From the NCBI GenBank assembly GCA_951799425.1, contig OX637392.1:52962093-53026092 (forward strand): DNA of 64,000 nucleotides, in the 5' to 3' direction. Origin of the DNA: Ilex aquifolium (Eukaryota > Streptophyta > Magnoliopsida > Aquifoliales > Aquifoliaceae). Below are positions 8,237 through 57,776 of the stretch, in pieces; positions within the stretch are counted from its first letter, which is position 1; each line of letters starts with the position of its first letter. Under the pieces are notes generated by a model, which made no database searches, was not told the DNA's origin, and saw nothing but the letters and a program-made list of their open reading frames with translations. Both the position numbers and the translations under genes were made by a program.

Positions 8237-8375
8237 TATCATATTTCAAACCGAAACAGGATATTGAACCCATATTAACAAAAATATCTTTTCAGATTAG
8301 ATACATTCCAGGGTCGGATTACATCATTGCCATCCATATTCTGTAGCCGGTATGCCCCAGTGCCCCCCACTGCAA

Positions 8376-11356
8376 CTACTTTGTAGGGGCCTTCCCAATT
8401 AGGTCGAGCTTCCCTTCGGTGGGTTCCCGAGCAGCGCCTACTACCTTTCTAAGCACCAAGTCCTCCACTTTGAAATCTCTTGTTCGGACCTTCTGATGAT
8501 GCTGTCTTGATAGTTCTCCTTGGTACTTGGCTAATTTGATGGACGCCAGTTCTCTCCTTTCCTCGGCCAAGTCAAGATCTTTGGCAAGCATCTGGTCATT
8601 ATTCCCCAAATCGAACGCTTGACTTCGGATGGTCGGAAGCCCAACTTCCAACGGGATGACAACCTCAACCCCATATATTAAGGCAAACGGCGTTTCCCCT
8701 GTTGAAGTCCTCGGCGTTGTCCTGTAGGCCCACAGTACGTTGAGTAATTCCTCGGTCCACTTTCCCTTTGCCTTTTCAAGTCTTTTCTTGATTCCTGCCA
8801 ACACAGTTTTGTTAGAAACCTCTGCTTGCCCATTACTCTGGGGGTAGGCCGGTGTGGAATAATAGTTCCGTATTCTAAACCTCGAGCAAAACTCTCTGAA
8901 AGGGCCACTGTTGAATTGAGTGCCATTGTCCGAGACGATAGCTCTAGGAATCCCAAACCGAGTGATTATGTTCTGCCACACGAATTTCTTTGTCTCGGCG
9001 TCTCGGATACGGCTCAGGGGCTCGGCTTCGATCCACTTAGTGAAGTAATCAGTAGCGACTAGTAAGAATCTCCTGCCTGAGGGGGCCTTCGGGAGTGGAC
9101 CCACAATATCCATCCCCCATTGAGAGAACGACCAAGGACTAGTCAGCAAATTCAGATCTCCTGCCGGCTGTCGGATGATGGGAGCAAATTTCTGACACTT
9201 GTCGCATTTTCGCACGTAACTCTTTGCATCTTTCTACATATAAGGCCACTAATACCCTTGTGTCATTGCTCGATGCGTGAGGGATCTGCCTCCCGTGTGG
9301 CTTCCACATACGCCCTCATAGATCTCGTAGAGCAGAGGTTCCACCCTGTCTTCGGGGACACAAAGCAGATGGAGCCCGGAGAAAGATTTCCTGTACAATT
9401 GCCGATCGGAGGATATCCAAAACCTAGTGGCCTTGAGTCTGATCTTTCTGGCTTCTTTGGCATCCTCGGGGAGCACGCCCTCCGTCAAATATACAACAAT
9501 GGGTTCCATCCAACCGAGAGTTGGTTGTGTCTGTATCGACAATGCCTGCTGGGCACCTGTCTCTTCTATGCTTTGTTTTTCCCGATTTTCAACAATGATA
9601 CGCCGGGTTACCTCTGAGGCTAACGCCGAGGCCAGGCAGGCTAAGGCGTCGGCGTGGGTGTTCTGATCTCTTGAAATCTGGGAAACTTCCACTTTTTCAA
9701 ATTTCTCTATCTTGGCTTTCGCCTTCTGACAGTATGCTTTCATCCTGGTATCCCGGACCTCAAAGTCACCATTGATTTGATTCGTCACTAGCTGGGAGTC
9801 ACAGAAGGCATGCAGGTGTCTGACTCCAACCGAGTAGGCAATATCGATCCCTGCCAAGATTGCCTCATACTCGGCTTCGTTATTAGATGCCTTAAACCCC
9901 AATCTGATAGCTCGTTCTATTGTGAATCCTTCTGAACTGGCCAGTACTACCCCCACTCCTGCCCCCCTTGCGTTTGAGGACCGTCGACATGAAGGCTCCA
10001 GTCAACATTCAAAGCGGTAATCTCCGGCGGGGGCTCGGGCGCAGAGAACTCGGCAATAAAATCAACGAGAACTTGCCCCTTAATTGAGGTACGGGGTTTG
10101 TACCTTATTTCGAATTCCCCCAGCTCCACAGCCCACTTGACGACACTACCAGATATGTTGGTTTTCTGAAGGATGGGCCTGAGAGGGCGATCAGTCAATA
10201 CCTCAATGATGTGTGCCTGGAAATAGTGCATGAGTTTCCTCGCCGAGATGACCAGGGCAAGGACCAATTTCTCCATCGGCAGGTACCTCGTCTCGGCGTC
10301 CAGCAAGGTCTTACTCACGAAATAGACGGGCCTCTGCGCCCCTCCACACTCCCTTACCAAAGCACCACTGACAGCTTCCTCCGAAACAGACAAATAGAGG
10401 TATAACGTTTCTCCTGTCCCTTGGACGGACAGGGTTGGAGGGCGCTTCAAATATTCTTTAATCCCCTCAAGTGCCCGGCCGCATTCCTCGTCCCAGACCC
10501 CTTTTGCCGCCCCTTTCAGCTTGGCAAAAAACAATTTGCACCTATCAGAGGATTTGGAAATAAACCGGTTAAGGGCGGCAAGCATTCCAGCCAACTTCTT
10601 GATGTCCTTGATAATCCTGGGCGCCTGGACGTTTTGGACCGCCTGAATCTGCTCAGGGTTAGCCTCAATACCCCTATGGGTTACCAAGTATCCCAGAAAT
10701 TTCCCCGAGCTCACCCCGAATGCGCATTTCGATGCATTAAGCTTTAACCCGTAGTGTCGGAGTATTGAGAACGTAGTGCCGAGATTAGCAAGATGATCAG
10801 CGCTCTCCTTACTCTTTACCAGCATGTCATCAATGTACACCTCCATGGTGACGCCAAGGAGATGCTTGAACATTTTGTTCATTAACCGTTGGTAGGTAGC
10901 ACCGGCATTCTTCAGCCCGAACGGCATCACCGTATAACAATAGATTCTCCGGGGCGTAATAAAGGCTGTTTTCTCTTGATCCGACTCTTCTAAAGCGATT
11001 TGGTGATAGCCCGCTCGAGCATCCATGAAGGTGATGCGCTTGTGACCCGCAGTTGCATCCACCAACTGATCCACTTTAGGAAGCGGGTACCCATCCTTGG
11101 GGCACGCCTTGTTCAGGTCGGTGAAATCCACGCAAACTCGTCACTTGCCTTCTTTCTTTTTGGCGCACACCGTATTAGACAGCCACTCGGGGAATTGGAC
11201 CTCTCGAATGGTGTCTGCCTCTAGCAATTTATCCACCTCTTCGTCCACGGCTTTTGCGTGATGCGGGGCTGTCCTGCGCGTCTTCTGCTTCACCGGTTTG
11301 AAATTCGGATTAGCATGAAGCCGATGGGTCATGACCTCGGGGCTGATCCCTGTCAT
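8376..11356 (-). pseudogene. Element A pol region: RT, RNase H, archaeal RNase H, integrase
   Basis: Polymerase part of the Tat-like element, read on the minus strand. Reverse transcriptase occupies the 11131 end (MDFTDLNKACPKDGYPLP, MPFGLKNAGATYQRLMN, catalytic YIDDML). An ordinary Gypsy RNase H follows (YFVSKTLLDAETRYLPMEKL). A second, archaeal-type RNase H comes next (LHVDG, then EYEAILAGI, FCDSQLVTNQINGDFEVRD and DALACLASA). Integrase lies at 9215-8376 (CDKCQK zinc-finger end; core WGMDIVGPLP, ATDYFTKWIEAEP, IVSDNGTQF, YPQSNGQAEVSNK). The second RNase H is diagnostic of the Tat lineage. The upstream piece 11141-11356 holds the start of the reverse transcriptase region. The whole is a fossil with several breaks. 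Confidence 0.93.
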
Positions 11357-11563
11357 CTCGGCATGAGCCCAGGCGAAAACGTCGGCATTTCAGCACAAGA
11401 AAGAACTCATCTCAGCTTTCTCGGCATTATCCAATGAAGAACCTATCAAGAAGTACCTCCCTTCATCATCGGGATTCAAAAGGACCTTGATCAGCGGCTC
11501 GGTGGAACGGCCGGCTGGCTCCACTGCGGGCTCATCTATCCCCAGCTGACCAAACTATGATTG

Positions 11564-13792
11564 CTATTTGGCCACCACCTCCTCGGGATCACGGTCCCCA
11601 AGCCGGGTACCGAGTCTTGTCTTCATTGCGGCATAGAAATAGTTTTTGGCCGCCAACTGGTCACCTCGGATCTCCATGATGCCGCACGGGGTGGGGAACT
11701 TCATTTTCTGATGATAGCTGGAGTGGACCGCTCTCATGGCATGTAGCCACGTCCTTCCCATTATGGCATTATATGGGGAATCGGAGTCTATCACCAAAAA
11801 CTCCACCGGGATCGCGACGATTGTTGTCTGAACCACCAAAGTGTTCTTGCCGAGTGGTAGAGCACTCGAACCGTTAAAACCGACGAGTGAGGTCTGGACA
11901 GGCTTCAAGTCCCTGCGGGTCAGGCCCAACTTCTGGAAGAGGTCGTCGTACATTACCTCAGACGAGCTCCCAGAATCCACCAGTATCCTCCTCACATCAA
12001 ATTTGTCAATCCGCAAAGTGATCACAAGGGCATCATCATGCGGCAGAGCCACTCCCCCTAAGTCAGCGTCGGAGAAGCTGATGACCTCGTGATCCTGCCG
12101 GGGCCTCTTGGAGGATTGTCCTGCCCACTCACTCTCCTCAACCTTTAATGCTTGCGAAACCCTCTTGCATTCAGCCCGAAGGACATTATACGTCGGCCTC
12201 TCAACTGTGCAGGCATGTATAACGTTAATTATAGGAACAACCTCTCGGGGCGACTCCGCCCTCTCCTCAACCGCCCTTCGGCGCGGCCTCTGGTCAATGA
12301 ATTCTCCAAGGTGCCCATCCCGGACCAACTGCTCAAGGAAGGACTTGTACGCCTTGCAGTCTTTAGTCATGTGGCCAAAATCTCTATGATAGGAACACCT
12401 GGCTGTTGAGTCTCTCGTGGCCGGATCGCCTAACATCTTTGGGGGCCACCTGAAATAAGGTTGATACCTTATCTTTCTCAGCATCCTGTAAATAGGTTCC
12501 TTGAAAACCGTGTTAACCCCTTGGAAGGATAGGCGGTTCGATGGCGAAGTGGGTGCACTCCTACGAGATGACTATTCTCTCTCCCTCTTCCTCGGCACTG
12601 CGGCTCTGTTCTCGGGAGCAGTGGTCTCTTCCTCAACTCGTACATACTTGTCTATGCGCACCATTAGGTCCTTCATGTCCCCAGGAACCTTCTTAGTAAG
12701 AGATCGGTAGAGGCCGGTGTCCCAGGACAATCCCAGCCGAAAAGACGCAGCAGCCATCGCTTCCGAGCATGCGTCTACCTCATTAACCTCCTCCCAGTAC
12801 TGTATTACATACTGTCAGAGGGATTCCCCGTTCTTCCGCCTAAGCGTCAGCAAGGCGCCAATGTCTTTCGACCTTTTAGTGCTGGTGATGAACCGCGCCT
12901 TGAAGAGCTCGGCCATTTGCTTCCAAGACTCGATGCTCTCCGGGGCCAAACTCTCATACCACTTCATAGCGGTATCCCCCAGGCTCATGGGGAAAACTCG
13001 GCACAACACCCTCTGGTCAGTGTCGTAGATTGACATTAGTTGCTTGTAATGCCGAAGGTGACTCTTAGGATCGGTTCTCCCATCATATGCCTTGAATCGG
13101 GGGACGACGAACTTCTTCGGCATTTCAGTTTCCCTAATAGACCGCACAAAAGGAGAAGATATATGCTCGTCATCTCCCTTGGGATGCGGTTCTCGGCGCC
13201 TGTTGCCAATGTGCTCTCTGGGGTATCTAGCCTCCCTTGGCCCCCTTGCGGTAGACTCCGCCTGAGATCTCGTAGATATGGTATCCCGAGGAATCCCACG
13301 GCGGAGGTCCCACCACGAAAGGCTTGTCCCATGTCGATCTCCTCCGGACCCTTCAACGGGCGCATGTTTTCGACAATTTCATGGATTTTGTCTATCGGTT
13401 GAGCGTTCGCGCCGAGTCCTCTTGGGGGTCTCAGGTCTCGCCCTCCTGGACTCTCCTCGGCTAAGGCTCCGACCCTCTGGTTCTCGGGCACGCCAGCTGG
13501 CATTTGCTGACTGCTCGAATTCTCTCAGCCTATGCCGCACCTTGGCATTGTCTCTTTCAAGTTCTCTGATGCGTTCCTCCATACGTTCCTCCACCATCTC
13601 CACGATGTCACGGGCTGAGGGGCCTTGCCCCCCTGGTCCTTGATCCACAAGGAATGTCTGTTGTGAAGAACGCCCCACCCCAGCTGACTGTCTCGCTGGG
13701 TTTAATTCTGTAACCACCGGGAGGCGGGTAGCCTCCATGTTTCTCATGTGTAAACTCCCTACCCCCTCACCTTGGGATCGTATGTTCACCAT
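11564..13792 (-). pseudogene. Element A gag and protease region
   Basis: On the - strand, 13792 to about 13379 is the charged gag N-terminus with a helical stretch (EMVEERMEERIRELERDNAK). 13147-12815 carries the retrotransposon gag core (FKAYDGRTDPKSHLRHYKQL, then MKWYESLAPESIESW). 12484-11564 contains a zinc-binding cluster (CSYHRDFGHMTKDC) and then the aspartic protease, with active-site LVDSGSS and the flap-like region ending IMGRTWLHAM. The order gag to protease to RT matches Gypsy. It is broken in several places and treated as a fossil. Confidence 0.88.
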
Positions 13793-13843: not shown

Positions 13844-14465
13844 TTACACGGGATAATTCCTGCAATCAGTTTGAGATAGCGATTGAACTGCTGATGAACC
13901 CTGAAACAACCACAAGGTCAGGAAAAAGGGAGCCAGGCGCACGCCCGGCTTATCCCCTCCGAAGCTTAAGTCAGTAAGAGAGGGAGGATGAAGCTCAATT
14001 CAGTGTGTTCTTAATCGAGTTTGCGTACCTTTGTTCATTTTTCTGAAGGGTATTTATACCTGGACTTGAAATGATTGCTCTGACACAGAGGTCATCTCAG
14101 CATTCAATGTCCTTCTCAATTACCCATGCGCCATGAGTGATTCCTACTTGGATTCCCGTGTCATCAATGCTCGGGGGATGGAAGTAGCCCTCGGGGCCAC
14201 GCCGAGAACCTCCAACTATCTCCGAGTACTCGAGTGCCTATAAACGGCGTCTGACACCTACTCCCGAGTAGTCGGCGTCTAGGGGCAAACGCCCCTATAT
14301 CTGCACTCGGCGTCACAGTCATTAATGCATCAACTCATGACTGTCAGTTTGGGTCTTCGAGGGTGCAGAGGCTCATTGAATGCTATGTCTAAGTCACTCA
14401 CGTCTCCATAAATGCTGGGTCACATCGTATTAATTGCTGGTGTCAGAAGTTTATACTCGGCTCCA
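13844..14465 (-). repeat. Element A 5' LTR, inner part
   Basis: Runs from the primer site to the insertion point of element B and continues at 28196-28353 beyond it; the full LTR is about 780 bp. 14337-14465 is shared with the 3' LTR at 4300-4428. The minus strand carries a TATA box (TATAAATACC, complement of about 14047-14056), so this part includes the element promoter. The inner border is approximate because it does not end in the usual CA. Confidence 0.8.
14461..14465. repeat. Target-site duplication of element B (left copy)
   Basis: CTCCA at 14461-14465 and again at 28191-28195. The single CTCCA at 4424-4428 in the undisturbed LTR shows that this is a true 5-bp duplication. Confidence 0.97.
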
Positions 14466-16281
14466 TGACTTGATCCGAAATGTGTACACCCAAGTGCAGG
14501 CGGTCAAGTTGTAGTAATAATCTGGTTTGAGTCCAGAGTCGAATCCTCAGGGAACTATGGTTGGTGTTCTTTGAAGTAAATAGTGAGAAAGACTTGTAAC
14601 TGGAAATATTATGATTTTGAAGTTGTGGGAAGTTTTGGATAGAATGTAAAATTATTTCCAATGGGTATTTTTCTAGACAAAATATAAGATGATGATTAAA
14701 TGTAACAAACACTCTTTGGTTCGGGAATCAGAATATGTAGTTGATTATCCGGTGCATTATGTTTATGCTTTATAACTCAATTAACTCCCGTGTCAACGGC
14801 AAATTAATCGGAAGATAGGAATGAAGTGCAATAATGGTGGACATTGAAAGTTTGTCATGAAGAGTTAGTTAGGGTACTTGCCTTGAATCAATGGATCTTT
14901 CCATGTAGGAGTCATCCATTTATCATAGAAAGATCCGTTGATTATACAAAGTACCTTTACTTTGCTAGGTGCATTCAATCACCCAAAAATCAAGTGGAGT
15001 ATAGAACATTTAAGCATAAAGGTGATACACAAACATAATGTCCGGATTAATCTTTTACATATCTATCATCCCTTCCCAAAGAGTGAATGAGGACTACTCA
15101 CCCTTCATAGCTATGGTAAAGCTAGAATGATGAATGGTACTCATCCCCAAAAGGTGTTACAAAGTAAAATGCTCAAGCACTAAAAGTGAAATGCTTTAAA
15201 GTAAAATAGCTAAACAAGGAGCCGATCTTCGACAAAGAATGAGTGAATCACGTTCCACCCTTCACGGCTTTGGTAAAGCTCTAGAAAAGTGGAAGAGTTT
15301 CACTCCTCTAAGGGGAAGAAGGAAGCTCCAACAATGGAAGTAAAAGAAAACAATACTTAAATTAAAAGAAAGCAATAAATACTTGGTGTTTAATCCACAA
15401 CCAAGAGATGATAATACATAAAAGAAAACAACAACTTCTTGGTGTTTAATCCACAACCAAGATATAATAAAAACATAAAAGAAAACAATAACTTCTTGGT
15501 GTTTAATTCACAACCAAGATCTAATAAAAAGAAAACAACAACTTCTTGGTGTTTAATTCACAACCAAGATCTAATAAAAAGAAAACAATAACTTCTTGGT
15601 GTTTAATTCACAACCAAGATCTAATAAAAAGAAAACAATAACTCAAGAAAATAAATAAAGCAATAATACTTGAAAGATGATTCAAGAAAAAGATTCAAGA
15701 CCTTTGGAGTGTTTTCCACTAGGAAGAAATGTTCTTTACAAGAAAAATGAAACAAGAGAAGGATGCCCATTACAAGCCCCCAAGGGGGGTATTTATAGGC
15801 ATCCAAATTACAAATATCCTAAAAGATATTTATCCTAAAATATATTTAATTACAAATATCCTAAAAGATATTTATCCTAAAAGATATTTAATTACAAATA
15901 TCCTAAAAGATATTTATCCTAAAAGATATTTAATTACAAATATCCTAAAATATATTTAAATATCCTAAAAGATATTTAAATACAAATATCCTAAAAGATA
16001 TTTATTTACAAATATCAAGAAGATCTTGATTTACACTTTGATCTCCCTTTGTTTTGAGCTTTAATAATTTACACCCTATGCTTTGATAAGTTGCTCTCCA
16101 TGCTTTGATAATTGGCTCCCGTCGTTTTGACGCATAAAAACCTGAAAAGAACAACATTCAATGCATTATCCTTAATTCACACATTAACCCTAATTAGATT
16201 TATTTTGACTATTTTAACTTTATTTAATTACACAATTGACCTTTTAATTTAATTACATTTTGCATTAATTAGGGTTAATCA
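14466..16281 (-). repeat. Element B 3' LTR (1816 bp)
   Basis: Near-identical to 26375-28190. It contains tandem units of about 50-75 bp around 15395-15640 (TTCTTGGTGTTTAATTCACA repeated) and a second array of ATCCTAAAAGATATTTA words at 15810-16010. A TATA box lies on the minus strand (TATAAATA, complement of 15790-15797), with both arrays close to it. The promoter copy in this LTR faces out into element A and the FRS remnant. Confidence 0.97.
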
Positions 16282-16298
16282 CACCCCCCAACCTAAAC
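16282..16298 (-). other. Polypurine tract of element B
   Basis: The minus strand reads GTTTAGGTTGGGGGGTG directly before the 3' LTR, the expected primer for plus-strand synthesis. A similar tract occurs internally at about 20513-20529. Confidence 0.85.
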
Positions 16299-17736
16299 AT
16301 TACTAGTCCCTAGTAATAAATAACAGCATAACAAAATCACTTTCGTAGATAACACGATTGCATTTAGCATATGCAATAAGCCGTTAAACCCCTAGGTGAT
16401 TCCTAGTGGACGAGTTTTGTCTCGTGAAGGTTTTCAGTGAAGCTACCTACAAACTCCATTTGAAAAAATGTGTATATGCATTAGCACCATGATAGCTGAG
16501 ACGCCGAAATTTTTTTTTTTTTTTTTAAGATTCAAAATAAAACACTTCTCTGTCATTGGTACGTAATATATGCAAAAATAAACACTTGTTATATTGGTAT
16601 TTGAAATTCCCTATGTAGTAAGAATGATCATTCTAGCAACAAGAATTGTTATATAACAAACACTCCATTTTACTACCTTCCATGGATAGCTTCGATTTCA
16701 CAAACCTCTCGTAGAATGCTCTCAGCAAAAGTTCACTCTGATTATAGTGACTTGTCTCTCAAGGGGCATGTGATCAGAAGGTGGCCAATCGAAAAATCAC
16801 ATGCACAATTTAGGAAGGGAGTGAAGTTTAAGGAAACAAACTAATCATGTTTGGCATAATCTCATGAAAGAATATTGATGTAATTTAAAGAAATACTATT
16901 TACCATACCCCAATTTTGATTAACAACACACACATGTAACAGACTTGAGATCAATTAGGGCTTTTCATAGGTTGTAGCGTGGCCAGAGGTCAGTGGCTAA
17001 TGAAATGACGTCAGAGGTTTTCAAAAGCTATCTTTTCATTATGTAATGTAGCACACTTCTTTCTAGCTTTTCGACATTTTGCCCAGAAATGATTTCTTTT
17101 TTTTTTTTTTTTTCATTTGTTCCCATTGATTCTCCTTATCATCGAAAAGTAATCTCCACAGTTTTCCCATTTCTTTGCATTTCTGTGTCATATTGATTAA
17201 TAAGAGTGTGCAAGAAAATTAGATAGCAATGGTGTGTCCAGTATGTTTTCTTGTGGCTTGGTAAATATTTGGGTTTATCAAAGAAGAAATCATACATTGA
17301 GGGCTCAAACATGGCTGACTAGGGAAATAATTTTGCAGAAAAAATGGCTAAGGCTCAATATCAAATCAAAGATGGTCTAAAATCCTTTCTCAAGTATGTG
17401 AACATGTATGTGTCGTATGAACAGATTTCTTGGGGATATGTCAACAGATTACCTTAGTTGCGTCAATCAAAGCAAATTTAATGAGATTATTCAAAAATAG
17501 AGAATGAAAGACCTTACTTGAATAAATGTTAATTATCTCTCAAAAGTATGGTAAGGCTCAAAACTTACCATGGTATTCTTTATCATCTCTACTGGTAATG
17601 TCAGGTTTTTCATGGAATGTCGGTTATATACCGATTCTATTTTTGAGTCTGGTCATTCTGTACCTTAAGAATAACAAATAGCAATATACATTTGACATTT
17701 AAGCATAGAGAAAATACCATTTTTCAAAGAAGTGAG

Positions 17737-17768
<32 letters not shown>

Positions 17769-17796
17769 TAATAATAATAAAATTCAAAATTATAAA
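16299..17796 (-). other. Element B 3' untranslated region with poly(T)/poly(A) tracts
   Basis: No open frame of note. Long T runs lie near 16509-16526, 17098-17114 and 17739-17754, the last followed by A-rich (AAT)n. The sequence is otherwise AT-rich and of unknown role; long 3' non-coding regions are usual for Athila elements. Confidence 0.55.
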
Positions 17797-18060
17797 CATA
17801 CTCATTTATCTATGAAAATTGAAAGAAGACTAGATGCACCAATTAAACTTGAAAAACTATGACGTCTCAGGATAAGTCCCTACCCACACTACAGGTTGGC
17901 ATTTTAGGACATTCCTTACTCAGCCCACATACTCATTTATCTATGAAAATTGAAAGAAGATAAAATGCACAAATTGAACTTGGAAATTTATGGCGTCTCA
18001 GGATCAAATCCCTACCTACACTGTTAGTTGGTAGTTCGGGACGTTCCTTACTCGGCCCAT
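17797..18060 (-). repeat. Two ~131-bp tandem units carrying degenerate GLSKD motif copies
   Basis: Units 17797-17927 and 17928-18060 share CATACTCATTTATCTATGAA and similar sequence to their ends. Each ends in CCTTACTC(A/G)GCCCA, the same word that encodes the GLSKDYPDTP segment of the two zinc-finger ORFs upstream. They look like residual fragments of the same coding module. Confidence 0.75.
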
Positions 18061-18173
18061 ATTTTTATTTCAACAACCAGACTTTGTACAAAAATATTTT
18101 ACAAAAGAGTTCAGACCCTTAACCTTCATTCCAAAACATATTTTTCCACAGCTTTGTCTTTAATAGTCAAAAT

Positions 18174-18578
18174 CTAATCCGAGTCATTGCTTGGATCTAT
18201 GTCATTATCAGTGACCCTTCCAACTTCTTGTCGCACATAACTTGTAAGTCCTGGACTGGCATAAGATGGCGTGTCAGGATAATCCTTACTCAGCCCATAC
18301 ACTATCCAGTTTAATCGATCGGTTGCACGACCCGAAATTGGTTCAGAACACTGATTATGTTTTTTCATATGAAATATCCTGCCACAATGGTAACAAGCAC
18401 CCAGTCGTTTGGAACGACGATGTTTAGCAAAATTGCTTCTGCCACACAATGGTTGTTGTTGTTTCTCTCGGATCTCAATTTTTCTCACATCCCTTGCTTT
18501 TCTCATTATCACAGCATGCACATCAGATGGGAAAATGCGTAGAACTCCTAGACTAAACCAAAAAAGTTTAGGATCCAT
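18174..18578 (-). CDS. Basic zinc-finger accessory ORF 2 of element B (Carla_C4-like)
   Basis: A 134-residue frame starting MDPKLFWFSL; an upstream ATG at 18599 would add seven residues, but the shared start with the sister ORF favours 18578. Features: residues 19-32 SDVHAVIMRKARDV, a Gly-Arg-Ser plus basic patch at 46-60, a zinc-finger-like C62-x2-C65-x4-H70-x6-C77, then ISGRATDRLNWI and GLSKDYPDTP at 95-104, and an acidic tail. It is about two thirds identical to the ORF at 19902-20312. The layout matches the carlavirus cysteine-rich nucleic-acid-binding protein (GRS-x-YARRRRA, C-x2-C, distal C, then I-x2-G and a Pro). In those viruses the protein binds RNA and can counter silencing. Function here is inferred only. 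Confidence 0.72.
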   Translation of the reverse strand: MDPKLFWFSLGVLRIFPSDVHAVIMRKARDVRKIEIREKQQQPLCGRSNFAKHRRSKRLGACYHCGRIFHMKKHNQCSEPISGRATDRLNWIVYGLSKDYPDTPSYASPGLTSYVRQEVGRVTDNDIDPSNDSD

Positions 18579-19440
18579 GTTTGCTAAGCCCAAAGACATT
18601 CTATCTGGTTCTTTAACGTCTGCCAGTCACAAAGACAGTTGAAGCTGCATCCGATGTGATCATGAAATACAGGTACAAATACTAAAAAAACGCGATCCAA
18701 AAAAAATAAATTTTTTTTTTTTTTTTTTTTTTTTCAGATCTAAAACTAAAATTACAAATACGAAACTAGAGAAAGTATACCAAAATACAAGCGGAAGGAA
18801 GAAGATTTAGGATGAAACAAACAAATTAACGAAGAAGGAATAAACCCAGAATACATAGGATTGAGGAGGATTATTTGGCAAATTATCAGATCTTACTGTA
18901 ACAGCAATTACAACATAGTCATTGGAGGGCATAGCAAATTCACAAGGAATCTTATAAAGACAAATAGCCATGAGAATCACAAGCTGTAGATATCAAATTT
19001 CAAATATATATATAAATGAAATTACAAACAAGCAATACTTACAACACTAGCACTAGTGGGCTAGTGGAGATAAGGTTGTAAGGTACAGATCTGTTCATCT
19101 GCCGAAACCTACAAACAACATACAACAATTACTCAACTCAAGGAATATCTGGGTTTCTCTGGAAACTCCTCATCCTAAGTGTGAGAACACAAAGAGCACC
19201 CAGGTACACATACAAACATATAAGACAAATTATTAAACAAAAGACTGGATCGTCGGCGTATATGGTCATGGATTTACAGGGTGTGAGTTGTTTTTACAGA
19301 GAACAGAAAGAACGACGACGAAGAAGAAGAGAAGAAAAAGAAAGAGAAGAAGAGAAGGGAAAGAGAAAAGGGGGGAACCAACACCGGTGATGGTGGAAGA
19401 AAAAGAAAAAGGTGGAAGGCCTAATAAAGGCATTCCTCAG

Positions 19441-19478
<38 letters not shown>

Positions 19479-19901
19479 AGAAAGTGTCGGCAGGAGCTGG
19501 CAGGCAGAAGAAAAGAAAAAAAGAAGAAGAAGAAAGGCAGTGGGAGGCCCCCCCCTTTTTTTTTCTAACTTTACTTTCGGCAGTGTCGGCAGGCGCAATA
19601 ATAGCAGCAGGCGCAATAATGGTGCATAGTAATAAAAATGAGTAGGGTAAGAGAACACCTCGTACTTGAGCTTTGACCCATGCACCGATATCTGAAACTA
19701 GGAACAACAAAATTATACAACAAAAGAAAGTGACATGCATTAAAAATAACATTAATAAATAAAAGTAACTATACACTATTGTAGAAGGATTTTAGCAAAA
19801 ACGTTCAAACGTGTTGTAACGTTCGAACGTCGAATCAAAAATTTTTACAGACTCGGACCTTCAGCTTTCATTCCCAACCTCAGTACACTTTTCCACAGAG
19901 G
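18579..19901 (-). other. Element B spacer between the two zinc-finger ORFs
   Basis: The stretch holds T runs at 18711-18734 and 19442-19472. A purine-rich block (GAAGAAGAGAAG words) lies at 19310-19380, followed by GGCCTAATAAAGGCA. A possible 3' splice-like site on the minus strand (GTGACTGGCAG) lies at 18628-18638, just upstream of ORF 2. A 54-codon minus frame at 18807-18971 has no recognisable domain. The purine block and the GGCCTnATAAAGGCA word recur at 20820-20945, so this spacer is part of a duplicated module. Confidence 0.5.
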
Positions 19902-20312
19902 TCAATCTGATTCCCCCTCCGTATCTGTGTAAAATGGACAACCAGTAACTCTCCCAACTTCCTCTCTCACAAATCGGTTAAGCACAGTACCGGAATAGCA
20001 TGGCGTATCAGGGTAATCCTTACTCAGCCCATGTTTTATCCAGTTTAATCGATCAGTTGCGCGACCGGAAATTGGTTCAGAACATTTGTTGTATCTTTTC
20101 TCATGAAAGTATCTGCCACACTGTTTACAGGCACCAAGTCGTGTAGCACGACGACGTTTAGAATAACTGCTTCGGCCACAGAGGGGTTTCGCTTGTTTTT
20201 CTTTGATTTCAGCCTTCCTTACTAATCTTGCTTTTCTCATGATCATGGTATGTACATCAGATGGAAAAGTACGTAGGACTCCTAGACTAAACCAAAAAAG
20301 ATTTACATCCAT
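19902..20312 (-). CDS. Basic zinc-finger accessory ORF 1 of element B (Carla_C4-like)
   Basis: A complete 136-residue frame, MDVNLFWFSLGVLRTFPSDV at the start, lying after integrase in the position where Athila elements normally carry an envelope-like gene. Residues 46-60 read GRSSYSKRRRATRLG. A finger C62-x2-C65-x4-H70-x6-C77 follows, then ISGRATDRLNWIKHGLSKDY to residue 100. The carlavirus nucleic-acid-binding protein family has the same order: GRS-x-Y, an RRRA block, C-x2-C, a distal Cys, a Gly-Ile-Ser-like segment, an Ile-x2-Gly, then Pro. It lacks a zinc-knuckle spacing of the gag type (C-x2-C-x4-H-x4-C), so it is not simply a gag duplicate. No signal peptide or membrane segment is seen. 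Host-protein origin remains possible. Confidence 0.75.
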   Translation of the reverse strand: MDVNLFWFSLGVLRTFPSDVHTMIMRKARLVRKAEIKEKQAKPLCGRSSYSKRRRATRLGACKQCGRYFHEKRYNKCSEPISGRATDRLNWIKHGLSKDYPDTPCYSGTVLNRFVREEVGRVTGCPFYTDTEGESD

Positions 20313-20640
20313 GATTGCTAAGTTTGAAGACTCACTATCTGGTTCTTTTACGTCTTCCAGTTACAAAGACGATCAAAACTGACCCACAGATATTATCATT
20401 AATACAAGGTACATAATCTGAACAGATACAACAATAAAAACAAAAAAAAAAAAATTTACAGAAAATTTTACGGGTTCATCCTACGCAGATCAACTACTGT
20501 AAACTGTAGATCTCACCCCCCAACCTAGACTGAACATTGTCCCCAATGTTTCGAGTTTTTCGGTTTGTAGAGCTTGAATACGCAGTTAACTGTGGAGATC
20601 TGTTCAATCGCCGATGACCTATACCAAAAAAAAACAGAGA
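20313..20640 (-). other. Element B leader of ORF 1 with internal polypurine-like tract
   Basis: Contains a splice-acceptor-like sequence (minus strand, near 20355-20375) matching that before ORF 2, and a minus-strand tract GTCTAGGTTGGGGGGTG at about 20513-20529, nearly the same as the true polypurine tract at 16282. No coding sequence is seen. Confidence 0.5.
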
Positions 20641-20787
20641 TTAAGCATCTTTGGGGTGGTCTGGGTTTTCATTGGGACAAAAACCCTTGATCATCAGTGC
20701 GGCCCGAAGAAGAACAGCCATAAGTAAATAATACAAACAAATGTAGATCATGAGAAGGAGGATAGGGTCATCGAAAAATGCAGACAT
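20641..20787 (-). CDS. Small single-span membrane ORF of element B
   Basis: 48 residues starting MSAFFDDPILLLMIYICLYY, with one long hydrophobic segment (residues about 8-30) and a hydrophilic tail ending HPKDA. It follows integrase by roughly 150 bp. A longer frame through the poly-purine block exists (to 21078) but its low-complexity Phe stretch is unlikely to be protein. The ORF could be a relic of an envelope-like gene or chance. Confidence 0.35.
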   Translation of the reverse strand: MSAFFDDPILLLMIYICLYYLLMAVLLRAALMIKGFCPNENPDHPKDA

Positions 20788-20932
20788 GGTACTGTTATGG
20801 GTTGGATTGTGGTTCAGAAGACCAGATGCAGTGGAGAAGAAGAAGAAAAGAGAAGAAAAAGAAGAATAAAAAGAAAAGAAAAGAGTAAAGGCGGTGGGGA
20901 AAAGAAAAAAGAAAAAAAAAACGATGGGGGCC

Positions 20933-22246
20933 TTATAAAGGCAGTCCATCGTGTCGGGTGTCTGATTGACCCGACCCTTTTTTGTGTCGGCAAGCGTAAT
21001 CTCCGGAGTGATTTCCGGAGATACTTTCTGGATCAATAAAAAAAATGGTCTCCACATTTTGGACAAAATTCTCCACAAAGGGTTTTAATCGCTGACCATT
21101 GACGGTAAAAATGTTACCGTTTGATGGGTTCTCCACTTCCACTGCCCCATGTTCAAATACCTTTTTAACAATGTATGGTCCAGTCCATCTTGATTTCAAC
21201 TTACCAGGAAATAGGCGAAGTCTCGAATTGAAAAGTAGAACCTTTTGATCAGGTTCAAAAGATTTTCGCACTATGTTCTTGTCATGAAAAATTTTCATCC
21301 TGGTTTTTGCAATCTTAGCATTTTCATATGCTTCATTTCTCAATTCCTCCAATTCATTAATCTGAAGCTTCCGTGACAGTCCAGCCTTGTCTAAGTCAAA
21401 ATTCATTGCTTTAATAGCCCAGTATGCCCTATGTTCCAATTCCACAGGCAAGTGACATGGCTTTCCATAGACTAATCGATAGGGAGACATGCCCAAAATT
21501 GTTTTAAAAGCAGTTCGGTATGCCCAGAGCGCATCAGTTAGTCTTAATGACCAATCTTTGCGATCTGGGTTCACCGTTTTTTCCAAAATTAATTTGATCT
21601 CCCGATTAGCTAACTCAGCTTGTCCACTGGTCTGTGGATGATAAGGGGTTGCAATTTTGTGAAAAATCAAGTATTTTTTCATTAAATTCCAGAAGGGACG
21701 ATTGCAAAAATGAGAACCCCCATCACTTATAATGGATTTTGGAATTCCAAACCGAGATAAAATATTTTCTTTTAAAAACTTGATCACTGTTTGATGATCA
21801 TTATTTCGGCATGGAATTGCTTCAACCCATTTGGATACATAGTCTACGGCTACTAAAATGTATAGATAGCCAAAGGAGGGGGGAAATGGTCCCATAAAAT
21901 CGATACCCCAACAGTCAAAAATTTCGATCACCAAAATTGGGTTTAAGGGCATCATGTTTCTTTTTGAAATGTTTCCCAACCTTTGACATCTATCGCAAGT
22001 TACGCAAAAAGCATGGACATCTTGGAAAAGTGTGGGCCAGTAAAATCCACACTGCAAGATTTTTGCAGCGGTTTTTCGAGATGAAAAATGACCACCGCAT
22101 GCTTCTGAATGACAAAATGTTATTACCTGTCTACTTTCCTGAGCGGGGATGCAACGTCTTATGATCTGATCCTTACAGTACTTGAATACGTAGGGATCTT
22201 CCCAAAAGAAATTGTGGACCTCCCTCAGAAACTTCTTTTTGTCCAT
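20933..22246 (-). CDS. Element B integrase region
   Basis: Athila-type integrase, 437 residues in frame. The zinc-binding HHCC domain reads [20 protein letters not shown], then [17 protein letters not shown]. The catalytic core follows ([59 protein letters not shown]), and then the C-terminal GPY-like segment ([15 protein letters not shown]). The first catalytic Asp lies in GIDFMG, the second in SDGG and the Glu in QAELANRE. It acts in the nucleus to insert the cDNA copy. It is the last part of pol, directly before the accessory ORFs. Confidence 0.94.
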
Positions 22247-22316
22247 GGGAGTGAAAAATGGAGGAAGTGTTCCGGTAGCAAGGAAATTAGCAATATCAGC
22301 GTACCATGGGGTCTCA

Positions 22317-24620
22317 TCAATCCTGAATAGTTGTTGAGTAATTCATTTGGGCATCATTTAAAGTTTTACTTGCATAGTAAATCACATGTGGCTTCTTATC
22401 TTTTCTTTGTCCCAAAACAGCACCTACAGCATAGTCACTAGCATCACACATCAATTCAAAGGGTAGAGTCCAGTCAGGAGGTTGCATTATTGGGGCAGAA
22501 ATTAACATGCCTTTGAGTTTGTCAAAGGATTTTTGGCACGCTTCATTCCAGTCGAAAATGACATCCTGACTCAAAAGATGACACATAGGTTTTGCTATGG
22601 TGCTGAAGTCTTTTATGAACCTTCTGTAGAATCCTGCATGACCTAAGAATGATCGAACATCCTTTACAACCCTAGGAGCAGGAAGATTCCTTATCAAATC
22701 AATTTTTGCTTTATCAACTTTCATGCCTTCAGACGACACAATGTGACCCAAGACAATGCCTTGATTCACCATGAAATGACATTTCTCCCAGTTAAGCACC
22801 AGATTTGCCTCTTTGCATCTCATCAAAACTTTTTCTAGGTTAGCTAGACACAAATCAAATGAGTCACCATATACCGAGAAATCATCCATGAAGATTTCCA
22901 AAAATTTTTCGACCATGTCACTGAATAAGCTCAGCATACATCTTTGAAATGTTGCAGGAGCGTTACAAAGTCCGAATGGCATCCTTTTGAATGCAAAGGT
23001 GCCAAATGGACATGTGAATGTGGTCTTTTCTTGGTCATTCAGAGCTATCTCAATTTGATTGTATCCGGAATACCCATCCAGGAAACAGTAAAATTCATGG
23101 CCTGCTATTCTCTCGAGGACTTGGTCAAGGAAGGGAAGAGGAAAATGGTCTTTTCTAGTCACCAGATTGAGTTTTCGATAGTCAATGCACATTCGCCATC
23201 CTGTGACGACTCGTGTTGGCACGAGTTCATTTGCATCATTTTTGACTACTGTGACTCCAGATTTCTTTGGTACAACTTGGGTTGGACTAACCCATTTGCT
23301 ATCGGAGATAGGAAAAATTATCCCTGCATCCAGGAGTTTGAGCACTTCCAGTCTCACAACCTCTTTCATGTGAGGATTCAATCGTCGCTGCATTTGACGA
23401 GAGGGTTTTGAGTCCTCTTCAAGGTATATGGCATGATTACAAATTAACGGGCTTATACCTTTCAAATCAGCGATGGTCCACCCAATGGTGCTTTTATGAC
23501 TTTTAAGAACTTCAATTAATTGAGCTTCTTGCAAGTCTGTGATTTTTGAAGAAATTACCACTGGGTAAGATTTATCCTCACCTAAAAATGCATACTTGAG
23601 ATCAGATGGGAGCGGTTTCAGTTCAGGCTTTGGTGGCCTGTCACTTGAAGATAGTGGTTTTGTACCACTTGATGAAATTTCTTCAAATTTAGGAGCCCAT
23701 GTCCCCACATTGAAGGTAGGGCACTCAATGGAGTTTTGTTCCAGAGAGTCAGATGAGTCAGAATTTGACAAAGTTGATTCACTAAGATCCTCACAGAATG
23801 AGTCATTCAGATGTGCTTGTATCAATGACTCAATGGAATTTATTTCTCCTACCTCCTCGTACTCTCTTGGGTGTTTTGCAATGTCAAAGACGTTCATTTC
23901 GAGAGTCATATCCCCAAAAGTCAATTTCATAATACCATTCCTGCAATTGATTAGTGCATTGGAGGTTGCTAGAAAAGGTCGACCAAGAATGACAGGAATT
24001 GGAGTTTCTGAATGAACTTCTGGATGAGTATCTAGAACAATGAAGTCTACAGGGAAGACAAAATTATCCACTTGGACAAGTACATCTTCAACAATACCCC
24101 TAGGAATTTTTACAGATCTATCTGCCAATTGGAGTGTGGTGCAAGTGGGTTTCAGTTCACCTAAACCCAACTGCTGGTAGACAGAAAAAGGAAGCAAGTT
24201 GACACTAGCTCCAAGGTCTAACAATGCTTGCTCAATTTTGAAATTTCCAATGACACATGACACAGTGGGACACCCTGGATCTTCGCACTTTGAAGGGATT
24301 TTGTGTTGAAGTAGGGCACTGGCTTGCTCTGTGAGGAAGGCTCTTTTTTGAACATTTTGGCTTCTTTTGACTGTGCACAAGTCTTTTAGAAACTTGGCAT
24401 AAGCTGGAACCTGTTGGATTGCATCCAGAAGTGGGATGTTGATTTTTACTTGCTTGAAAAGCTCGTAAATTTCAGACTGATTGTTTGCTTTCTGTATGCT
24501 CTTGAGTCTATGAGGGAAAGGAGCAGGAATAGAACACGAGGGTTCTTCTTCCCTTGATGGCTCTGGTTCTTGTTCAATCATGGGATCACAGTCATTTTTT
24601 TTTTGCAAGTTCTGGCTCAC
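22317..24620 (-). CDS. Element B protease and reverse transcriptase region
   Basis: 767 residues in frame. The aspartic protease has the Athila-type active site [13 protein letters not shown] and the region [15 protein letters not shown]. Reverse transcriptase follows ([52 protein letters not shown], catalytic FMDDFSVYG), with the start of RNase H ([18 protein letters not shown]). The frame overlaps the end of gag by 29 bp, so expression by read-through or frameshift is likely, as in related elements. The element's polymerase region is not fully whole; details are left aside as it is a retroelement. Confidence 0.94.
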
Positions 24621-26247
24621 TTAATGGGTTGGCTGGAATTGAGTCTGGTTTTGGGTCTGGAATTAGCATGTTTCTGATGGACTTGTCAATCTTTTTGCCA
24701 CTTCTCAATGTGGTGACAGTTTTGGCTTGGTCTTGTGGAGTTTCCATAGTTGATGGATTTCCCACCTGAAATTGGCCTTGTGGAGGCTTTGGTTGGGCAG
24801 GAAATTTTCCTTTCTCATGTGTGCTCATGGACTGGGTCAGCTTTTGAATGTGGCCTTTGGGATCCTCAAAAGATTGTGTGGTCTGGGCCTTGAAATCAAT
24901 AAAAGCCTGAGTAGAACTATTGTTATAGCTCATTTGGGTTTGCATGAATTGATTCAATGTATCTTCAAAGCTCCTTTTGTGTGGTGGTTGATATGGAGGA
25001 TATTGTGGAGGTACTTGAGGTGGATGTGGTGGCCCTTGTTGATGAGGATATTGTGGAGGTCCTTGAGGTGGTTGTTGTGGACCTTGTTGCTGATTCATGG
25101 GGGTTGGTTGTGTGTTTCTCCAACTGAAATTTGGGTGGTTCCGCCACCCTGGATTGTATGTTTCAGAGTATGGGTTGGAGTAAGGCTTGTTGAAATTGGA
25201 AATGGCATTTGTTTGTTCCAACAAAACTTCTTTGAATGCCGGTATGGTCGGGCATTCCCCAGTAGGATGCCCTGTTAGCGCACAAATCTCACACACTTGT
25301 TCTGTGGGAGGGACAACATCAACTTGATGGACCTTTTTCATCTCTAAAGCTTCAAGCTTTCGAGACAAAGTGGACATTTTTGCTCTAAGATCATCATCTT
25401 CTCTCAAGACATACTTACCCCCTTGGAAAGTAGGTGGTTTGGCTTCTACAGTGGTAGGAGATGCTGAGTCCCACATTTGAGAACTGTCAGATATGGTATC
25501 AAAAAAATTGAATGCCTCCTCCAGACTTTTTCCCATGAACTCTCCTTGAGCCATCATTTCGACAAACTGTCGTAACCTAGTGGGCAAGGAATCATAGAAA
25601 AAACCTGCCAAAGTCCAATTTTCAAAAGTATGGTGTGGACAAGATTGGAGAAGATCTTTGAATCTCTCCCAGCTTTGATAAAAAGTTTCCCCTTCTTTGA
25701 CCGAAAAATTCATGATTTGTCTTTTGAGTGTATTAGTGCGGTGCAGAGGAAAGAATTTTCTGAAAAATTCATTCTGTAGAGCCTGCCAATTAGGGATTGA
25801 AAGAGATTTTAAAGAATGTAACCATTGTTTGGCTTTATCCCTCAAAGAGAAAGAAAACAATTTCATTTTTGTCAATTCAGAATTGTCTTGAAATGTTCCA
25901 CACACTTCTTCGAAGTCTTTGATATGCAGATACGGATTTTCTGCATCCAATCCATGAAACACGGGCAATAACTGCACTGTCCCCGGCTTTACAGTAAAGA
26001 GGGGAGCATTTTCAGGAAAAATAAAACAAGAGGGGACACTATTCCTTGTGGGATGTAAGTAATCTCGCAATGTTCGAATGTTGGGTACTTCCCCCTCTCT
26101 CACATGATCTTCACCCTGCCTATCAATATTTGCCATATTGAAGTTACAAGAGTCGGCTTTTGATTTGGGTGAAGGTGGTTCAAGTTGATTTACAGACCCA
26201 GAAGATTCAGCAGGCAAATTTGGATAGAGGCGATTGGTGTCAGTCAT
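24592..26247 (-). CDS. Element B gag
   Basis: 551 residues starting MTDTNRLYPNLPAESSGSVN. The retrotransposon gag core spans about residues 70-230 (FHGLDAENPYLHIKDFEEVC, KAKQWLHSLKSLSIPNWQAL). A zinc knuckle C-x2-C-x4-H-x4-C follows (CEICALTGHPTGEC), then NPGWRNHPNFSWRN, a conserved Athila signature. A Pro/Gln-rich repeat region and a C-terminal tail ending in TLRSGKKIDK come last. Gag forms the particle in which reverse transcription occurs. The start is 127 bp from the LTR, after the primer site. Confidence 0.95.
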   Translation of the reverse strand: MTDTNRLYPNLPAESSGSVNQLEPPSPKSKADSCNFNMANIDRQGEDHVREGEVPNIRTLRDYLHPTRNSVPSCFIFPENAPLFTVKPGTVQLLPVFHGLDAENPYLHIKDFEEVCGTFQDNSELTKMKLFSFSLRDKAKQWLHSLKSLSIPNWQALQNEFFRKFFPLHRTNTLKRQIMNFSVKEGETFYQSWERFKDLLQSCPHHTFENWTLAGFFYDSLPTRLRQFVEMMAQGEFMGKSLEEAFNFFDTISDSSQMWDSASPTTVEAKPPTFQGGKYVLREDDDLRAKMSTLSRKLEALEMKKVHQVDVVPPTEQVCEICALTGHPTGECPTIPAFKEVLLEQTNAISNFNKPYSNPYSETYNPGWRNHPNFSWRNTQPTPMNQQQGPQQPPQGPPQYPHQQGPPHPPQVPPQYPPYQPPHKRSFEDTLNQFMQTQMSYNNSSTQAFIDFKAQTTQSFEDPKGHIQKLTQSMSTHEKGKFPAQPKPPQGQFQVGNPSTMETPQDQAKTVTTLRSGKKIDKSIRNMLIPDPKPDSIPANPLSEPELAKKK

Positions 26248-26347
26248 AAAAAAAAAAATTTATTCACAATAAGGCAAAAATATACACAAAAAGAGAGGTT
26301 TTTTTTTTTTTTTTTTTTCACCTTTTTCTAAAAAGAGCACCTTTTAT

Positions 26348-26368
26348 GGTTCCCCGGCAACGGCGCCA
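26348..26368 (-). other. Primer-binding site of element B (tRNA-Asp type)
   Basis: The minus strand reads TGGCGCCGTTGCCGGGGAAC, separated by a few bases from the 5' LTR. This is the primer site usual for Athila elements, complementary to the 3' end of tRNA-Asp. Confidence 0.92.
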
Positions 26369-26374
26369 AAAACT

Positions 26375-28190
26375 TGACTTGATCCGAAATGTGTACACCC
26401 AAGTGCAGGCGGTCAAGTTGTAGTAATAAGCTGGTTTGAGTCCAGAGTCGAATCCTCAGGGAACTATGGTTGGTGTTCTTTGAAGTAAATAGTGAGAAAG
26501 ACTTGTAACTGGAAATATTATGATTTTGAAGTTGTGGGAAGTTTTGGATAGAATGTAAAATTCTTTCCAATGGGTATTTTTCTAGACAAAATATAAGATG
26601 ATGATTAAATGTAACAAACACTCTTTGGTTCGGGAATCAGAATATGTAGTTGATTATCCGGTGCATTATGTTTATGCTTTATAACTCAATTAACTCCCGT
26701 GTCAACGGCAAATTAATCGGAAGATAGGAATGAAGTGCAATAATGGTGGACATTGAAAGTTTGTCATGAAGAGTTAGTTAGGGTACTTGCCTTGAATCAA
26801 TGGATCTTTCCATGTAGGAGTCATCCATTTATCATAGAAAGATCCGTTGATTATACAAAGTACCTTTACTTTGCTAGGTGCATTCAATCACCCAAAAATC
26901 AAGTGGAGTATAGAACATTTAAGCATAAAGGTGATACACAAACATAATGTCCGGATTAATCTTTTACATATCTATCATCCCTTCCCAAAGAGTGAATGAG
27001 GACTACTCACCCTTCATAGCTATGGTAAAGCTAGAATGATGAATGGTACTCATCCCCAAAAGGTGTTACAAAGTAAAATGCTCAAGCACTAAAAGTGAAA
27101 TGCTTTAAAGTAAAATAGCTAAACAAGGAGCCGATCTTCGACAAAGAATGAGTGAATCACGTTCCACCCTTCACGGCTTTGGTAAAGCTCTAGAAAAGTG
27201 GAAGAGTTTCACTCCTCTAAGGGGAAGAAGGAAGCTCCAACAATGGAAGTAAAAGAAAACAATACTTAAATTAAAAGAAAGCAATAAATACTTGGTGTTT
27301 AATCCACAACCAAGAGATGATAATACATAAAAGAAAACAACAACTTCTTGGTGTTTAATCCACAACCAAGATATAATAAAAACATAAAAGAAAACAATAA
27401 CTTCTTGGTGTTTAATTCACAACCAAGATCTAATAAAAAGAAAACAACAACTTCTTGGTGTTTAATTCACAACCAAGATCTAATAAAAAGAAAACAATAA
27501 CTTCTTGGTGTTTAATTCACAACCAAGATCTAATAAAAAGAAAACAATAACTCAAGAAAATAAATAAAGCAATAATACTTGAAAGATGATTCAAGAAAAA
27601 GATTCAAGACCTTTGGAGTGTTTTCCACTAGGAAGAAATGTTCTTTACAAGAAAAATGAAACAAGAGAAGGATGCCCATTACAAGCCCCCAAGGGGGGTA
27701 TTTATAGGCATCCAAATTACAAATATCCTAAAATATATTTATCCTAAAATATATTTAATTACAAATATCCTAAAAGATATTTATCCTAAAAGATATTTAA
27801 TTACAAATATCCTAAAAGATATTTATCCTAAAAGATATTTAATTACAAATATCCTAAAATATATTTAAATATCCTAAAAGATATTTAAATACAAATATCC
27901 TAAAAGATATTTATTTACAAATATCAAGAAGATCTTGATTTACACTTTGATCTCCCTTTGTTTTGAGCTTTAATAATTTACACCCTATGCTTTGATAAGT
28001 TGCTCTCCATGCTTTGATAATTGGCTCCCGTCGTTTTGACGCATAAAAACCTGAAAAGAACAACATTCAATGCATTATCCTTAATTCACACATTAACCCT
28101 AATTAGATTTATTTTGACTATTTTAACTTTATTTAATTACACAATTGACCTTTTAATTTAATTACATTTTGCATTAATTAGGGTTAATCA
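26375..28190 (-). repeat. Element B 5' LTR (1816 bp)
   Basis: Same length as the 3' LTR at 14466-16281 and almost identical; visible differences lie near 26430, 26562 and 27730. It carries the same internal tandem arrays. The minus-strand TATA box (complement of about 27699-27706) would start the genomic RNA toward gag. Confidence 0.97.
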
Positions 28191-28195
28191 CTCCA

Positions 28196-47133: not shown

Positions 47134-47178
<45 letters not shown>
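47134..47178. repeat. (AT)n microsatellite at the left edge of the pararetrovirus locus
   Basis: Uninterrupted AT dinucleotides. The viral terminal sequence starts directly after it. A second (AT)n marks the far edge at 61203-61218. Confidence 0.95.
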
Positions 47179-47180
<2 letters not shown>

Positions 47181-47244
47181 TCCATTTATATCTACAGCTT
47201 GTGATTCTCCTCACATCTCATGTCTTTCCGCACTTGTTTTATTT

Positions 47245-48768: not shown

Positions 48769-48774
48769 TTTTTT

Positions 48775-57771: not shown

Positions 57772-57776
57772 CTGGT

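Follow-up and report, generated by a model that had tools for sequence, protein, structure and literature searches.

Two diverged genes for flexivirus-type nucleic-acid-binding proteins behind the integrase of a young Athila-like retrotransposon in Ilex aquifolium

A 64,000-nt stretch of the Ilex aquifolium genome (assembly GCA_951799425.1, contig OX637392.1, positions 52,962,093-53,026,092; referred to as the window, to which all coordinates apply) contains a complete long terminal repeat (LTR) retrotransposon of ~13.7 kb on the minus strand (14466-28190), and downstream of its integrase lie two related open reading frames (ORFs) whose products resemble the nucleic-acid-binding proteins (NABPs) of flexiviruses. 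Copy 1 (19902-20312, minus strand) encodes 136 aa, and copy 2 (18174-18578, minus strand) encodes 134 aa from a conserved MD start, or 141 aa when read from the first ATG at 18599. The two proteins are 69% identical and share the motifs SDVH...IMRKAR, LCGRS followed by a basic patch (KRRRA-type in copy 1, KHRRS in copy 2), C-x2-C-x4-H-x6-C, ISGRATDRLNWI and GLSKDYPDTP. The original prediction for this region had described two ORFs with a shared order of motifs behind the integrase of a young element, and both were confirmed where it had placed them.

Comparison with Pfam showed that both ORFs match Viral_NABP (PF05515; E 8.2e-11, 42.7 bits for copy 1 and E 3.3e-12, 47.3 bits for copy 2) and Carla_C4 (PF01623; E 6.8e-6, 26.4 bits and E 3.3e-5, 24.2 bits, respectively), all four matches exceeding the gathering cut-offs of 23 bits (PF05515) and 20.9 bits (PF01623). 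The match to Carla_C4 that had been anticipated was thus borne out for both ORFs, with PF05515 the stronger of the two families and the coverage of Carla_C4 partial (residues 38-70 in copy 1, 25-76 in copy 2). Three further genome copies scored 41.9-44.5 bits against PF05515, and the NABP of Peach mosaic virus itself scored 17.9 bits (E 0.0032). A chance resemblance of motifs is ruled out by the Pfam E-values. In the literature, the number PF01623 was also met in use for another domain, HAGH_C. Residues S48, K52, R54, R55, C62, C65 and G95 are invariant among 35 chosen element, metagenome and viral rows, and the basic GRS-x3-K-x-RR patch followed by a C-x2-C zinc finger is present, as in the flexivirus NABP, or cysteine-rich protein (CRP). 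The ORFs follow the integrase within the LTRs and do not hold the flexivirus position 3′ of a coat protein gene; their product is a homologue of the viral protein, and the ORF is not a viral gene.

A search with copy 1 against 5.8 billion proteins gave 10 metagenome relatives at E ≤0.01, each with both Pfam domains. These 10 relatives and the two window ORFs made up a virus-free profile (A1), all 12 members of which match PF05515 and PF01623 at E ≤1. Run against 5.8 billion sequences, this profile gave 23 matches at E ≤1 and reached the NABPs of Peach mosaic virus (a trichovirus; E 2.4e-7) and Grapevine virus H (a vitivirus; E 6.7e-7); aligned directly, copy 1 and the Peach mosaic virus NABP share 42/126 identities (33%). 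A wider profile, extended by the two viral proteins just named and by other distant matches, gave 56 matches at E ≤0.1, among them further trichovirus, vitivirus and carlavirus proteins, which are not independent evidence because two viral proteins were in the query. Scans of a viral contigs collection with A1 and the distant relatives P0015 and P0019 returned no relatives.

These searches bear on an independent origin, according to which a gag zinc knuckle or a host zinc-ribbon protein such as eL43 would have converged on NABP. In its favour, the PDB gave weak sequence matches to eL43/L37Ae, four of them at E 0.0046-0.02, the source of one metagenome relative labels that protein L37AE/L43A, and zf-C2HC_2 is matched weakly, by copy 2 at E 0.11 and by two of the 12 A1 members with E 0.002 as the best value, whereas the similarity to viral NABPs covers ~100-126 residues in the same order, past the zinc finger. 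Neither an eL43 nor a CCHC-knuckle family is among the Pfam matches to E 10, where the sole others, both below cut-off, are zf-C2HC_2 (E 0.11) and zf-ChsH2 (E 0.13), so that no gag or host family matches better, an alternative that the original prediction had raised. NCBIfam gave one match, at E 0.085 and far under its cut-off, and nothing else, and the gag of the element already has, by eye, a CX2CX4HX4C knuckle of its own (CEICALTGHPTGEC). Convergence from either source is disfavoured by the Pfam and PDB sequence results, and we regard it as very improbable.

An initial structure model (predicted local distance difference test, pLDDT, 46.8) was replaced by a model from a deeper alignment of 35 sequences (pLDDT 72.6; predicted template modelling score, pTM, 0.51). 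In a viral structure library this model gave 48 matches, and the 26 named proteins among the best 30 are from Alpha- and Betaflexiviridae, with NABPs first and Cherry mottle leaf virus and two pruneviruses at the top; for some of these the family assignment is our presumption. A fold search of the PDB with the same model gave no match.

The gene is not confined to the element of the window. A search of the 800-Mb genome (103 contigs) with copy 1 gave 4101 loose candidates, the best 150 of which were scored and are at least 99% identical, full-length and without stops; copies with stops are under-represented among these best 150 because ranking by score favours intact copies. A second search with P0015 gave 3395 loose candidates, of which the best 150 were scored, and the top 30 of that list (L035-L064, overlapping the copy-1 list in part) are treated below as further loci. 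Their NABPs are 56-93% identical to the nearer window copy over the best aligned stretch, and at 19 of the 30 an NABP frame that begins at the aligned ATG is open for 110 codons or more (at L041 it stops early, at 113); at L049 it is open without an ATG. At 20 of the 30 further loci, the 1.5-kb flank was found to include a same-strand integrase upstream of the NABP: at 14, the last matched integrase residue lies 281-415 nt before the NABP with no hydrophobic ORF found between; at five, the order is integrase, hydrophobic ORF, NABP; and at one, the integrase lies 876 nt before the NABP and no hydrophobic ORF was found. Since the ORF is present in other elements of the genome, a private capture by this one element is ruled out, and since the gene is common to several element families, its uptake is older than this young element. 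The idea that a retrotransposon had taken up the gene therefore stands as to homology and place, with the qualification that the event was not that of this young element alone.

Nine of the loci L001-L034 were also inspected (L001, L002, L010, L020 and L030-L034); L002 corresponds to the window, and L031 and L032 fall at the same places as L001 and L020, respectively. Among these nine, the two-module arrangement described below recurs at three other places (L020/L032, L030 and L033) and in part at L010 and L034, and L001/L031 carries copy 1 without integrase or hydrophobic ORF found nearby. At one locus, L034 and L036 are NABP copies in opposite orientation, which suggests neighbouring or rearranged copies.

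The two window copies differ at 31, 23 and 50 sites at codon positions 1, 2 and 3, respectively, and the ratio of nonsynonymous to synonymous change (dN/dS) between them is 0.27 by NG86 and 0.21 by maximum likelihood. Among 11 open frames that are 51-93% identical, dN/dS was 0.07-0.45 in 52 of 55 pairs; two pairs were saturated, NG86 dS being not computable. Both C-x2-C-x4-H-x6-C and the basic patch are kept in 21/21 open frames. The NABP is thus under purifying selection among open copies, a point that the original prediction had left for comparison with sister elements, where the ORF does recur. These data also speak to the view of the gene as a neutral passenger, an accidental endogenous viral fragment in a young element. 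Cucumber DNA is reported to hold endogenous betaflexivirus replicase sequence (PMC3136472), which gives that view a precedent, but several families have open frames, dN/dS among these lies mostly below 0.45 and every one of the 21 open frames keeps the zinc ligands, all of which contradicts a passenger pseudogene, and we give this explanation almost no credence. Distances between NABPs were correlated with those between the integrases of the same loci (r 0.63; 210 pairs from 21 loci, namely that of the window and 20 more at which the integrases overlap sufficiently, L036 being excluded), and none of 2000 permutations gave a value as high; it follows from this correlation that NABP and pol have travelled together.

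A tree of 53 proteins was built from 11 viral proteins, the two window copies, 19 copies from elsewhere in the genome and 21 selected unnamed proteins, and in it the 31 rows that are elements or element-like group in a single clade (support 92/93; 90% of bootstrap trees). The same grouping was obtained in an earlier, 49-row tree, which omitted 12 of 59 proteins, mostly fragments and frame-broken ones: its 15 element and element-like rows also make up a clade (86/61; 98% of bootstrap trees). A single uptake of NABP by the elements is compatible with this topology. In the 49-row tree the trichovirus and vitivirus proteins are nearer to the elements than are those of carlaviruses, with weak support at those forks; the label carlavirus-type given by the original prediction holds for the Carla_C4 match, and is refined by the tree and by the virus-free profile, which reached named viral proteins of a trichovirus and a vitivirus.

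Transfer from virus to element is likelier than the reverse, though unproven, and the lean in this direction comes from the greater diversity of the viral NABPs, which have long branches and span several genera, relative to those of the elements. The reverse course would have the gene arise in plant retroelements and be acquired by flexiviruses, perhaps more than once; in its favour, the viral NABPs are not united in one clade in the trees (three changes; the starred branches force one and two). The NABP ORF is also described as patchy in viruses, being present in only some trichoviruses and varying within genera (PMC4472227), and two metagenome clades include proteins that look frame-broken (P0047, P0049, P0051 and P0048), suggesting genomic copies. 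Forcing the viruses into one clade, however, cost 4.7 log-likelihood units and was not rejected by the approximately unbiased test (p-AU 0.212), and together with the diversity of the viral proteins this leaves an origin in the elements unlikely in our judgement. A broader conjecture along the same line, in which plant LTR retrotransposons would be a reservoir of a flexivirus silencing-suppressor gene that is exchanged with flexiviruses, the viral NABP may be element-derived, and the copy of each family would stand behind a dedicated RNA leader as an anti-silencing weapon, appears to us similarly improbable.

The metagenome relatives include two further clades of NABP-like proteins without known source, one comprising P0015, P0024-P0026, P0028, P0030 and P0031, and the other P0019, P0027, P0029, P0032, P0033, P0035, P0036 and P0040. 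The reading frames of P0047, P0048, P0049 and P0051 appear broken by eye, which suggests genomic repeats rather than viruses. P0027 comes with an 8.7-kb contig. P0005 and P0014, the latter a fragment like copy 2, come from the same source on contigs that are both 2941 long, and are possibly the two-copy arrangement in another sample.

Alignment of the regions around the two window copies showed that the NABP ORFs are parts of a larger duplicated module, which takes in a GCCTTTAT[A/T]AGGC box, a leader rich in pyrimidines, a small hydrophobic ORF and a stretch resembling a 3′ splice site. Near the start of module 1, at the integrase stop, lies a GCCTTTATAAGGC box (20930-20942, minus strand) with a counterpart in module 2, which is either TATA-like or a small inverted repeat; the core TTTAT[A/T]AGG was found no more than 1 kb upstream of the gene at all 10 further loci with a hydrophobic ORF, at L061 and in both window modules. 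The hydrophobic ORF encodes 48 aa with one membrane span by eye in module 1 (20641-20787, minus strand) and 43 aa in module 2 (19138-19269, minus strand); the two are 34% identical (E ~0.02 within the window), and the ORF is present at 10 of the 30 further loci and open in nine of those 10.

Upstream of each NABP start is a conserved, non-coding leader box of 44 nt (module 1, 20329-20372; module 2, 18595-18638; both minus strand) with the consensus T[C/T]GTCTTTGTGACTGGCAGACGTTAAAGAACC[A/G]GATAGnG[A/T]GTC. The box was found at 30/30 further loci (its first half only at L038, and two boxes each at L035 and L043). Of the 55 columns in an alignment of 32 distinct stretches out of 34 (L038 and L057 excluded), 18 are invariant and 19 more are at least 90% conserved, with mostly variable flanks. 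The box may form an RNA structure, act in translation or as part of a promoter, or be bound by NABP itself. A pseudoknot was considered for the leader box and fits 94.1% of cells, but 68 of 500 shuffles reach its covariation and the base pair that changes most often links one CpG site to another; because the covariation is not above that of shuffles, the pseudoknot is not claimed. An Rfam search of 16284-21100 gave no match to the leader box, and its five matches with E up to 1 fall in one overlapping plus-strand region, 19429-19564, over homopolymer-rich sequence, all under the gathering score.

Between pol and the NABP gene of module 1 lies an internal box, GACAATGTTCAGTCTAGGTTGGGGGG (20516-20541, minus strand), that resembles the 3′ polypurine tract (PPT), and a box like GACAATGTTTAGTTTAGGTTGGGGGG was found between integrase and NABP in 26 of the 32 regions examined and is absent upstream of copy 2. 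It may be a central PPT or a relic of an ancestral order of pol, PPT and LTR. In Diaspora, the PPT is reported 128 bp after pol (PMC1142308); the NABP gene may accordingly have joined downstream of an old tract that is now internal.

The element itself is a young, Athila-like LTR retrotransposon, the label Athila-like being taken from its domain order and the features of its primer binding site (PBS) and LTRs. Its 5′ LTR (26375-28190) and 3′ LTR (14466-16281; both minus strand) are direct repeats with TG...CA ends and three mismatches in 1817 aligned bases (one base outside the LTR counted in), flanked by a target-site duplication, CTCCA, at 14461-14465 and 28191-28195 (no strand assigned; read from the element flanks), and a related repeat at 4300-4587 in the window retains the target site without interruption. 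All coding and replication features are on the minus strand: the PBS TGGCGCCGTTGCCGGGGA (26351-26368), 6 bp inside the 5′ LTR; gag (24592-26247; PF03732); protease, reverse transcriptase and the start of RNase H (22317-24620; PF13650, PF00078 and PF17919); integrase (20933-22246; PF17921 and PF00665); and the 3′ PPT GGTTGGGGGGTG (16282-16293), which adjoins the 3′ LTR. This order of gag, protease, reverse transcriptase, RNase H and integrase is that of Ty3/gypsy elements, and we take the 18-mer TGGCGCCGTTGCCGGGGA to be a tRNA-Asp site. The Athila relatives Diaspora and Calypso are described with a tRNA-Asp PBS 5 bp beyond the LTR (PMC1142308). The NABP modules occupy the place where Athila relatives carry an envelope-like ORF; between copy 2 and the 3′ LTR (16294-18173) there is no sense ORF of at least 80 aa, and hence no envelope-like ORF there, and Diaspora is a known member of the Athila lineage without env (PMC1142308).

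Short direct repeats lie 3′ of copy 2 at 17869-18070 on the minus strand (18070-18000 against 17938-17869, 76% over 71 bp) and by eye are like DNA coding for the GLSKDYPDTP segment. Elsewhere in the window are a second, different retroelement (8376-13792, minus strand) with gag-, reverse transcriptase- and integrase-like ORFs by eye and direct repeats alongside (7744-8324), and a set of large nested inverted repeats (47174-60888) that are 97-99% complementary with arms of up to 1.3 kb.

The reading that we favour, and consider probable as a whole, joins a single, old uptake of NABP by an Athila-like lineage to inheritance with pol and to a role in weakening silencing. An Athila-like Ty3/gypsy lineage would have acquired a flexivirus-type NABP gene once, some time ago, by transfer from an RNA virus; the gene would have been held between pol and the 3′ LTR and inherited along with pol, and in the young family of the window it would have been duplicated together with the leader and the small hydrophobic ORF. 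The protein would be made from a downstream or spliced RNA by way of the leader box, would bind RNA or DNA through the basic patch and zinc finger, and might shield element RNA or reverse-transcription intermediates or relieve silencing of the element. Flexivirus NABPs are described as RNA-binding proteins with a zinc ribbon, several of which suppress RNA silencing (PMC4472227, PMC12172455). As two diverged copies are both kept open, their jobs are presumably not quite identical.

The role assigned to the protein has a competitor in which NABP is mainly a nuclear regulator, a transcription factor or a chaperone of genome RNA, and not a silencing suppressor. The p12 CRP of the carlavirus Chrysanthemum virus B is reported to be a transcription factor and a weak suppressor (PMC12172455), the basic patch could act as a nuclear import signal and, more speculatively, the leader box could be a binding site for NABP; vitivirus, carlavirus and mandarivirus relatives are, on the other hand, reported as silencing suppressors (PMC12172455, PMC4472227). 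We regard a mainly nuclear role as a real possibility, albeit a somewhat doubtful one.

Several results weigh against the favoured reading of one old uptake followed by selection for an anti-silencing role. No integrase was found in the flank of 10 of the 30 further loci, and the NABP has in-frame stops at 10 of the 30. The test for selection took open frames only (11 of the 21), and its closest pair, copy 2 and L039, gave a dN/dS of 2.81 on 11 differences; for the hydrophobic ORF, dN/dS was 0.25-1.46 among the pairs listed, with no clear selection on the protein. In the 49-row tree, element and viral groups are connected by forks with weak values, 26-61, in the SH-like approximate likelihood ratio test (SH-aLRT) and the viral branches are long, and the direction of transfer does not follow from the tree because it is unrootable and one viral clade is not rejected. 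The structure model is of moderate confidence (pLDDT 72.6), with TM-scores on query length of at most 0.45 and only three of 48 matches at E 0.001 or better, and as the TM-scores are low the fold match leans on sequence.

If true, an old viral origin of the gene would be a documented case in plants of a gene passing between RNA viruses and retrotransposons and being kept by selection across several element families. A clear RNA-virus relative whose activity has been measured in those viruses makes anti-silencing genes in retrotransposons directly testable with one small protein, and matches to Viral_NABP in plant genomes or metagenomes need not signal viral infection.

Among viral proteins, the NABPs of trichoviruses (Peach mosaic virus, Cherry mottle leaf virus), Prunevirus and Vitivirus have the same GRSxxAKRRRA-type patch, C-x2-C finger and W[IV]-x2-G as the element ORFs, and for the trichovirus the resemblance extends to the N-terminal part and to the length (137 aa). 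The element ORFs differ from the NABPs of Betaflexiviridae in lying in a chromosomal LTR retrotransposon behind integrase, in occurring as two diverged copies, and in their C-x2-C-x4-H-x6-C spacing, G[LQ]SKDYPDTP-type motif and acidic tail. The carlavirus CRP (Carla_C4) is matched above cut-off but more weakly, and carlavirus rows are on long, more distant branches. On the side of the elements, Athila, Calypso and Diaspora are described with the same gag-pol order and a TGGCGCC... PBS a few bp inside the LTR (PMC1142308).

That plant LTR elements commonly carry additional ORFs is well established (PMC7264820, PMC11728184), and for many of these the origin and function are stated to be unknown (PMC7264820). 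A literature search, with subscription journals and preprints mostly outside its reach, found no report of a viral NABP in a retrotransposon; a screen of 121 genomes reported 15 extra domains, nine of which are named in section 12 of that paper, NABP not being among those nine (PMC9289625). Retand elements resemble the present one in having an added ORF, possibly for a nucleic-acid-binding protein, after pol and before the 3′ LTR, but their TRP28 ORFs are antisense and of a different domain, unlike the NABP ORFs (PMC11963269). A host source is possible for the AlkB gene of a Phalaenopsis Gypsy element, because AlkB proteins exist in plants. To our knowledge, no host gene corresponds to NABP. 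The closest precedent found is this AlkB m6A demethylase ORF of orchid Gypsy elements, which is likewise an added RNA-related gene and whose domain is also reported from Alpha- and Betaflexiviridae (PMC9289625).

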